Assembly: GCA_963457665.1 (NCBI GenBank)
Contig: OY735203.1
Location: 25,567,634 to 25,631,633 of the forward strand
DNA: 64,000 nt
Source: Thysanoteuthis rhombus
Lineage: Eukaryota; Mollusca; Cephalopoda; Oegopsida; Thysanoteuthidae
Direction: 5' to 3'
The position numbers were made by a program, and so were the translations under genes. Below, piece by piece: positions 40,037 to 42,059 of the stretch (positions are counted from its first letter, which is position 1; each line of letters opens with the position of its first letter). Under the pieces are notes generated by a model. That model saw only the letters and a program-made list of their open reading frames with translations. It was not told the DNA's origin and made no database searches.

Positions 40037-40630
40037 CATAGCGTTGTTTGTTACGGAGTATGTTGTTACAGCTGAACGTTGAAACATTTTGAGCTATAAA
40101 CCATCTTGGAACATTTAAATTTATACTCTTGAGTAACAAGAGAAGTTTGCTTCTCTCTGATATTACCCATTTCCGAGATTCCATCTCATACTTATCGATG
40201 TATACAGTTCTGCCTATCTCCTCCTCGTTTTCTATTGCCGGGAGGCAATTTCAATATCTTAAATGTATTCGTTAAATTATGTGTGTATTGTTATGCGATG
40301 CTTCATCCGTTGATACACAGCTTTTACGATTTATCATAAAATAAGATTTACACGGGAAAGAGACGAGTTCAGTCGGTCTCTAACAATGGACAGTGAAATA
40401 GAAAATAATTTTACGGGTCATTCTCGTATATTCCTGGATGCGTCAACTTTGTATCTGGAGATCGTTAAAAGTGTAGTCGGAAACAAGAGAAATCAAACGT
40501 GAAATGCACAGGAAAATAGAGGTGTCTTGTTGTTCGAGGTTGCGTGTAATAAAATATCAGTAATAGTTAGCAAGGTCTACAAACGGAACGATATCTGATA
40601 ATTCAACTGCGTACACTGACACAGTCATAT

Positions 40631-40633
<3 letters not shown>

Positions 40634-40672
<39 letters not shown>

Positions 40673-40690
40673 AATATATACATATATATA
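40634..40690. repeat. (CA)n with TA extension
   Basis: A CA run of about 36 bases and a short TATATACATATA stretch lying directly 3' (on the minus strand) of the hammerhead ribozyme. Confidence 0.95.
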
Positions 40691-40702
40691 TTATTGCGTC
40701 AT

Positions 40703-40744
40703 CCACAGACAGCTGTTTCGATGTATTACATCTCTTCAGTGTGG
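40703..40744 (-). ncRNA. Minimal type I hammerhead ribozyme
   Basis: Read on the minus strand from 40744. CCACA (stem I, 5' strand) is followed by the core CTGAAGA at 40739-40733. Stem II is the perfect hairpin GATGT-AAT-ACATC (40732-40720). Core GAAA follows at 40719-40716. A two-base-pair stem III (A-C with G-T, loop AGCT) leads to a GUC cleavage triplet ending at 40708. TGTGG (40707-40703) then closes stem I with CCACA. Every conserved core base of a hammerhead is present. Beyond stem I, GTC (5' side) and GAC (3' side) can pair again across an internal loop. Very short stem III is the hallmark of hammerheads in Penelope-like elements and metazoan retrozymes, which act as dimers. No element body could be delimited around it. 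Cleavage would fall just 3' of position 40708 on the minus strand. Confidence 0.8.
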
Positions 40745-40749
40745 CTATA

Positions 40750-42059
40750 GACTTTCCATTATCCCGTCCAGTACCGCGAGATGTTTTCACAAACTTATGC
40801 AAAACAATACTCGCAATCATAAATAGATGTGATGTGGAGATCTAAGACTCAGAAATACTAGTATACTTCTACACCAAAAAATACTGACGGGGTTATGCGT
40901 TTCATATCTACTTGAATAAGCATATCGATACATACACGCACAAATGCAGATCAAACACTAGATATAAGTTGGTATATAAATTCCACTGCCTAAGCCTGGG
41001 ATTGAAAAACGATCACCAGATAACCTGATTACACTCAATACACACAAATACCCACGTGTGGTGATTAGGGAGAAGAAATGTTGGAACCTTAAGCAAAATG
41101 TCTATTGTTCCCTTCATTTTAGGCCAAGTCAACTGGGAGGTTATCAGAGTCTTTGATAAGTTCTAATCTTCTTAATTTCATCCTCTAACATTGTTGCCCC
41201 TCTATTATTTTCACTTTATTCCACTGGACCTGTGAACTCCCTTTCCCTCTACAAATGATCAGCAATACTTAATTTCATACTCTCTTTGTGGACAACGCCT
41301 TTTTGATGTCCTTTAAGCCTTACCTTTGGAGGACCGTTGCTCTCGGCTTTATATTCCAAGCCACAACCGTATGAAATGGTATACACAGTTATTGGTTATA
41401 TTTTTATCTGATGTAAAGTCAACTTCGCTGAAGTATCTCCAAAAGGTGGAACTGCTTTTGAAAACTGTCCTGATTTATACAGATCGTAAAAATCATTTCT
41501 GATACGCTCCTGATATAAGGAACGCAGGCTACAGCAGTTTTCACTCATTTTTGCACCTCTGTCGGTTGATGTTTTACAGTTATAGAGCACCTGTTACTCC
41601 GATACTTGTTCTTTATACTGATTATTTCCTGTTAGTTTGAGTGTTGGTTACCACGTATCAGTTTTGCTCGATGTCGTAGATAACACACGACACATTTTTT
41701 CATATGTCATGAGTGATAGAATTCGTTAAGTTAAGATATTGTCCGGTAAATATTGGCTTATGATATTCGAATGTCCTACTCCGTGTATGTTATTGTTACA
41801 TCGAGATGGTCAGTATTTCTATCGTTAATTATATTGAAGGTTGCATTTTGTTCACGTGGTCTAGTGGTACTTGCATCTGTTCTTGGTGATGTCAGGGTAT
41901 GAGGGTATCATTGATTTTTTGCTAGACTTGAACCTTATATTATACCTTTACATCAAGAAAGAACAGTCATTTGGTATAACGTTCCGAATTTTAACCACCT
42001 GATATCCTGATGTCCTGCGGGACAATGGATTGGTATATATAAGAGTCAATTAGAGAAAA
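40750..42059. other. No feature recognised
   Basis: No motif, repeat partner or RNA gene was recognised apart from short open frames. Confidence 0.5.

Follow-up and report, generated by a model that had tools for sequence, protein, structure and literature searches.

The 64-kb stretch of squid DNA analysed here (the window) contains a complete minimal type I hammerhead ribozyme (HHR) on its minus strand. This motif is probably the ribozyme of a 5'-truncated copy of a retroelement of about 290-330 nt, which combines a retrozyme-like build with SINE-like dispersal and would depend on a reverse transcriptase (RT) acting in trans, most likely that of a Penelope-like element (PLE).

The hammerhead motif and its stem II lineages

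When the minus strand was read, every element of the HHR named in an earlier note on this DNA was found (Table 1). The window copy has the features of a type I HHR, namely a CUGANGA/GAAA core, three stems, an open end in stem I and UH before the cleavage site. Two details of the earlier description were borne out in part. The two-base-pair stem III with its AGCT loop is present but belongs to the self-complementary sequence ACAGCTGT. The letters of a distal GTC/GAC pairing beyond an internal loop are also present, but this pairing exhibited no covariation beyond shuffles in 100 distinct copies (87.7% paired versus 87.0%), and a register slid by 3 was paired more often (93.7% versus 87.7%).

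Table 1. Positions of the hammerhead elements and of the surrounding repeat copy in the window
Feature	Position	Strand	Basis or remark
Minimal type I hammerhead ribozyme	40703..40744	-	sequence reading and structural scan; sister copies match RF00163, three under its cut-off and one over it
Stem I, 5' strand CCACA	40740..40744	-	partner is 40703-40707
Catalytic core CTGAAGA	40733..40739	-	sequence reading
Stem II GATGT/ACATC, loop AAT	40720..40732	-	pair 10.2/11.2 is A-T here, T-A in the apparently older subfamily
Core GAAA	40716..40719	-	sequence reading
C AGCT G, stem III region	40710..40715	-	sequence reading; T C next, before cleavage
ACAGCTGT palindrome	40709..40716	-	stem III of 2 bp in the monomer, 8 bp between two copies
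Presumed cleavage site, between GTC and TGTGG	40707..40708	-	predicted from the HHR consensus
Stem I, 3' strand TGTGG	40703..40707	-	sequence reading
Possible distal stem I, GTC	40750..40752	-	TATAG between GTC and stem I CCACA
Possible distal stem I, GAC	40698..40700	-	AT between stem I TGTGG and GAC
GACGCAATAA tail	40691..40700	-	many copies have GACACAATAA or GACGCAATAA; the 3' boundary recurs here, ahead of the TA repeat
5'-truncated copy (about 95 bp) of dispersed HHR-bearing repeat	about 40685-40782	-	genome matches

A structural scan (CTGANGA, stem II of at least 4 bp, GAAA, one stem III pair, UH and stem I of at least 5 bp) detected exactly one match on both strands of the window. The same scan of 1.88 Gb of first-order Markov sequence of equal composition gave 40 matches, corresponding to 0.0014 per 64 kb. 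This expectation, together with about 12,000 intact-core matches across the genome, contradicts the reading of the motif as a product of chance; we regard that reading as having a negligible probability, even though the window copy scores under the Rfam cut-offs.

The covariance-model search proposed in the earlier note gave a divided result. There were no matches in the window at Rfam gathering scores, and in a relaxed search of 40500-40950 the sole HHR match was to the RAGATH-1 hammerhead (16.6 bits, E 3.7). Three sister copies, searched as short stretches, matched Hammerhead_1 (RF00163) at 23.4, 21.7 and 23.9 bits (gathering score 34), and a Rfam scan of five whole loci together, with E up to 5, returned no hammerhead. 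The divergent copy L001 scored 35.6 bits and was the sole match over the cut-off among the 73 candidates scored of 299,496 in the genome.

Copies of the ribozyme fall into lineages that differ in stem II, which is GATGT/ACATC in the window type and mainly GTTGT/ACAAC in the others. Between these two forms, both bases of pair 10.2/11.2 are different. Among exact 32-mers genome-wide, A-T was found 2,992 times and T-A 2,495 times, with 50 cases of T.T and 57 of A.A; the pair was thus kept in 5,487 of 5,594, and the broken intermediates each account for about 1%. An ungapped comparison showed the pair kept in 29/29 A-type copies and 70/73 others. Outside the core, the GATGT/ACATC copies differed from the majority by a median of 3.8% (n = 29, mostly picked by similarity to the window copy), and the copies with other stems II by 20.8% (n = 73), a value that indels inflate because the divergence script, like that for covariation, was ungapped. 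Within this sample, the window-type lineage looks young and the GTTGT/ACAAC type older, to judge from the sequences.

In 100 distinct copies, stem II was paired in 93.6% of cases compared with 85.4% in shuffles, and 31 cells were changed on both sides compared with 10.0; neither value was reached by any of 500 shuffles. The number of stem II pairs changed on both sides (3) was reached by 77/500 shuffles and the number of pair types (8) by 55/500. Stem I exhibited no covariation beyond shuffles in the same copies (89.2% versus 88.9%). Further, L001 carries C-G at the next stem II pair, followed by a G.A mismatch. The earlier note had staked its reading on the existence of other copies with a conserved core and compensatory change, and the reading survives this comparison: the compensatory evidence consists of one ancestral double change in stem II, plus the L001 variant.

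Because the copies used for covariation were chosen for an intact core, conservation of the core in them is not in itself evidence. The core was intact in 27/30 copies chosen by overall similarity to that of the window (the latter included), and, by reading, in 7-8 of 17 tandem upstream units of the sample chosen by a 5' marker. These sequences fit selection on active source copies with neutral decay of their insertions, which the one ancestral double change may reflect but does not prove.

The dispersed repeat around the ribozyme

The earlier note recognised no surrounding element. However, the window copy can be aligned with many others, and a 3' boundary recurs among them. When 40690-40900 was searched against the genome (2.73 Gb, in which the window is C6:25567634-25631633), 42 places were found, including the window itself. 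Identity was 96-99% over about 40690-40782 (query roughly 119-211) in 39 of these; of the two remaining places, one matched at 87% over part of this interval and one was short and weak. None of the 41 non-window matches extended upstream of 40782. As the shared piece starts near this position, the window copy lacks the 5' part of the unit: it opens with CTCGCGG... at an internal point of the unit, and at its 3' end it enters TA/TG repeats.

The full repeat is dispersed and about 300 bp long, with units of about 290-330 nt (297 nt in L050) that carry the HHR close to their 3' end. Upstream of the part present in the window, other copies extend to TTAATGCTCC; this region comprises a head, in which stretches resemble an A box and a B box, an inverted-repeat module (TGCTCTTCCATAGGAATAGAGCA) and one more module. 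The pattern CTGANGANBN{5,20}GAAACAGCTGTC gave 6,450 genome matches, a variant of it with A in position 2 of stem II gave 5,605, and the reversed-pattern control of each gave 0. A marker for the 5' part of the unit was found 4,257 times when up to 2 mismatches were allowed. Such genome counts of repeats may be lower bounds. Of the 17 window ORFs of at least 100 aa, none overlaps the HHR-bearing copy, and Pfam, applied to 6 of them, assigned no family at E up to 0.01.

Five copies (L002, which is that of the window, L003, L004, L005 and L015) share the 5' end CTCGCGG at unit position 244 and have different flanks. A fixed stop of reverse transcription and a short sub-element are alternative explanations of this shared start.

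The head resembles a tRNA in its motifs. Among 107 copies, which are related to each other, A-box-like stretches were found in 24, B-box-like stretches in 30 (with a pattern that includes the repeat's own GGTTTCRAYCC) and both at suitable spacing in 7, compared with 3.8, 0.05 and 0 in mononucleotide shuffles. The tRNA model matched L022 only (12.7 bits, E 6.5) among the Rfam scans of copies and loci. ARAGORN detected no tRNA genes in 15 loci, and at relaxed settings its counts were little above those of shuffles (12 to 5, 36 to 29 and 53 to 46). Neither Rfam nor ARAGORN confirmed a true tRNA head, and the resemblance stays at the level of motifs. Near AGAGCATCTGCC or a variant of it, L045, L048, L084 and L096 carry a different head fragment. 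To the eye it looks closer to a tRNA, as though one head had replaced another; in L048 and L096, this alternative head gave no match to the tRNA model.

Copy ends, tandem units and the predicted dimer

The ends of the repeat were examined in 107 HHR-anchored copies representing 101 loci; L009, L018, L019 and L021, which are without the exact core pattern, were dropped. A TA run begins within 45 nt past the cleavage site in 80/107 copies, and 65 of those runs start 10-23 nt past the site. Of the 10 bases that follow the site, TGTGGATGAC, 103/107 copies keep 7 or more, indicating that the copies cross it. These positions place the 3' boundary near GACACAATAA, where the TA repeat begins about 17 nt past the cleavage site. 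Neither a TA run nor a next unit was found in 17/107.

The 5' ends are scattered, with recurrent sites at unit positions 92-99 (14/107) and at 244, that of the window copy (5/107), and TA repeats lie on the 5' side in 37/107. Note that these ends were taken from local alignment to two real copies, which may break in the variable head, so that some are not true insertion ends. Only L050 starts exactly at the cleavage site; L065, which aligned there, is a tandem junction.

We also read a set of 40 loci, the first perfect matches of the 5' marker on C1 and C2 (L122 and L123 overlap, and L110 and L113 repeat earlier loci). Ends inside the marker are invisible in this set, because the marker itself starts at TTAATGC. 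Another unit or a remnant lies directly upstream in 17 of the 40. Among those that follow TA repeats, about ten begin at TTAATGC and five somewhere between this motif and the cleavage site; five more, with flanks of other kinds, begin close to TTAATGC. Two have their starts at about the cleavage site (L113, which is the L050 locus, and roughly L141); L133 is odd. The copies thus have a recurrent 5' boundary near TTAATGC that, in multimers, meets the 3' boundary some 17 nt past the ribozyme junction. The L122/L123 locus (C1:46629304-46629413) is an inverted pair, in which two units on either side of a TA repeat point outwards.

The exact start of L050 at the cleavage site had raised the possibility that 5' ends mark HHR cleavage, which was rejected when the wider samples showed no pile-up there. 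As 103/107 copies run across the site, the RNA that was reverse-transcribed appears to have been uncleaved or re-ligated. Target-site duplications (TSDs) were not in excess: 3/52 copies share a word of at least 8 nt, compared with 2.8 expected, with low-complexity flanks, in which TSDs are invisible, excluded.

The tandem copies that the earlier note suggested looking for do occur, some as head-to-tail units at similar spacing, mostly 289-332 bp. Among the first 100 matches listed for each stem II pattern, same-strand HHR-to-HHR spacings were 289, 305, 294, 311, 310, 316 and 332. There are also shorter spacings, of 185 (L024) and 231 (L065), and a pair at 637 bp in L064 represents two separate insertions. 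Continuation into a next unit was found in 10/107 HHR-anchored copies, and since the downstream continuation re-enters the repeat unit, the elements can be tandem.

In the energy model, the HHR fold of the monomer has -4.9 kcal/mol and its best alternative, a CTG/CAG mispairing, -10.0 kcal/mol; the two-strand double hammerhead has -25.7 kcal/mol and the best dimer -28.4 kcal/mol. The self-complementary ACAGCTGT is thus predicted to favour a dimeric HHR, and both the palindrome and the modelled energies speak for the dimer-type minimal HHR proposed in the earlier note. The minimal HHRs of PLEs (Cervera and de la Pena 2014, Lunse 2017) reportedly have a very short stem III and were proposed to act as dimers; the squid ribozyme is alike in stem III, but its unit is of about 300 nt without a coding region. 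Dimer action is described for type I HHRs of viroids, newts and amphibians in the cited passages of PMC6155905 and PMC7761336. A stable circular fold was rejected for the one real unit folded: as a circle, this 297-nt unit was no more stable than 100 shuffles (z 0.8).

Mobilization and relation to known elements

PLE-like sequences are abundant in this genome. The L109 locus encodes a GIY-YIG fragment that matches PF01541 (Pfam) at 31.3 bits and has at least 150 related genome places (150 of 2,439 candidates scored). We take the endonuclease fragments of L109 and L153 to be PLE-like. Many of these fragments and of the related places contain internal stops, and some have open frames of more than 200 codons. 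No PLE with a ACAGCTGT-type HHR or tail was detected in L106-L109 by a strict motif scan or in L150-L153 by a looser scan. A ribozyme or tail common to PLE and repeat was thus rejected in these eight GIY-YIG loci, which are seven distinct places (L150 and L109 coincide); in L153, a separate copy of the HHR repeat lies about 1 kb off on the opposite strand.

A second minimal-HHR-like family, CTGAAGATGG...CCGAAACATGTC, has 1,266 genome matches (control 0); it contains the palindrome ACATGT, and its stem II has a bulged T. An example lies in L031 at about 1202-1231 (numbered on the strand of the main HHR), with the motif on the other strand. From its sequence, this family may be the ribozyme of a PLE.

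According to the cited part of PMC11167929, PLE reverse transcription starts internally in an AC-rich stem-loop at AT-rich targets; mutation of the HHR left insertion in vitro unblocked, and reads starting at the HHR site were absent. The squid repeat is similar to the PLE described there in the position of its tail and in its AT-rich targets. The link between PLEs and the HHR repeat is circumstantial.

In the mechanism that we propose, RNAs transcribed from tandem copies, or two transcripts together, would form a double hammerhead by way of ACAGCTGT and would be cut between GTC and TGTGG, giving unit-length RNA. The template would be an RNA that is uncleaved or re-ligated, in the latter case a circle as in known retrozymes. 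An RT supplied in trans, most likely by a PLE, would begin synthesis at AT-rich targets from within the AC-rich tail, often stopping early. The window copy would be such a truncated insertion, a dead descendant in which the HHR is still intact. A more specific version, which we hold to be possible but doubtful, is that the retrozyme is also a Pol III-type SINE, whose circles, made by the dimeric HHR, are copied by a PLE-like RT from a start in the tail and for at most one turn. Copying of this kind would explain both the boundaries abutting 17 nt beyond the junction and the 103/107 copies that cross the cleavage site.

Two other origins have to be weighed against the proposed retroelement. The repeat could be an ordinary SINE in which an HHR-like stretch, for example from a PLE 3' tail, is a passenger with no present role, and the tandems could be adjacent insertions. 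Single, 5'-truncated copies beside TA repeats do prevail among the 107, their 5' ends do not mark the cleavage site, 103/107 cross that site uncut and the core decays; the independence of PLE insertion from HHR cleavage in vitro, with no reads from the HHR site (in the cited part of PMC11167929), points in the same direction. However, two successful lineages have kept a full stem II through a double substitution, with intermediates at about 1% each, and the tandem units lie mostly at similar spacing, which makes a mere passenger rather unlikely in our judgement. The repeat could also be a diverged non-autonomous PLE, that is, the pseudo-LTR region left after loss of the coding part. The cited parts of PMC11167929 and PMC7761336 give minimal HHRs, tandems and RT starts at internal sites in AT-rich DNA as traits of PLEs, and both the abundant PLE-like endonuclease fragments and the second minimal-HHR family (ACATGT, 1,266 matches) accord with such an origin. 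In contrast, the unit of about 300 nt is too short to encode an RT together with a GIY-YIG endonuclease, A-box-like and B-box-like motifs occur in 24 and 30 of 107 copies, and this HHR was no part of the PLE in the eight GIY-YIG loci (seven places). We therefore consider a PLE remnant improbable, less likely than the passenger.

The proposed retroelement would belong to a kind that has been described. In the cited passages of Cervera and de la Pena (2020, PMC7229834), metazoan non-LTR retrozymes are tandem repeats of 150-450 bp with type I HHRs and give linear and circular RNAs of about 170-400 nt. The squid repeat is like them in its type I HHR, its non-coding unit of a size within about 150-450 bp, its tandem dimers and longer arrays, its low GC content and its thousands of copies, and like amphibian retrozymes in a weak helix III favouring dimers (PMC7229834, same passages). 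Unlike them, the squid copies sampled are mostly single and 5'-truncated beside TA repeats, with no excess of TSDs, and unlike the published circles, which tend to be highly self-paired although this is no strict criterion, one squid unit lies at z 0.8 (PMC7229834, same passages). Further, the squid repeat has an uncertain tRNA-like head. Thus, the suggestion of a new retrozyme-type family holds in that the repeat is retrozyme-like, with thousands of copies, some of them tandem; it is new only as a member of a described kind. The retrozyme authors themselves state, in the cited passages of PMC7761336, that retrozymes may be viewed as a new family of SINEs, with PLEs/Terminons as likely candidates for completing their mobilization.

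SMalpha of Schistosoma mansoni is likewise a SINE-like repeat with a type I HHR (Ferbeyre 1998; PMC8490949, in the passage cited). The squid repeat is like it in this description; the animals are unrelated, and the squid stem III is minimal and lies within a palindrome. The tRNA-derived SINEs of octopus (Ohshima and Okada 1994) are possibly alike, being short and dispersed with A-box- and B-box-like motifs. HHRs in a cephalopod have been counted before: 235 hammerhead 1 ribozymes were assigned by Rfam in the giant squid genome (PMC6962438, in the passage cited). A search for literature joining the hammerhead ribozyme and octopus, which lay mostly outside subscription literature, found only a co-mention in a reference list; we do not assert that the family has gone unreported.

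The templates from which Penelope-like machinery inserts retrozymes could be HHR-processed circles or uncleaved RNAs. The abundance of the squid repeat, its two compensated lineages and its thousands of insertions make it a natural record for deciding between them, and the question is made testable by boundaries that meet 17 nt beyond the cleavage site.
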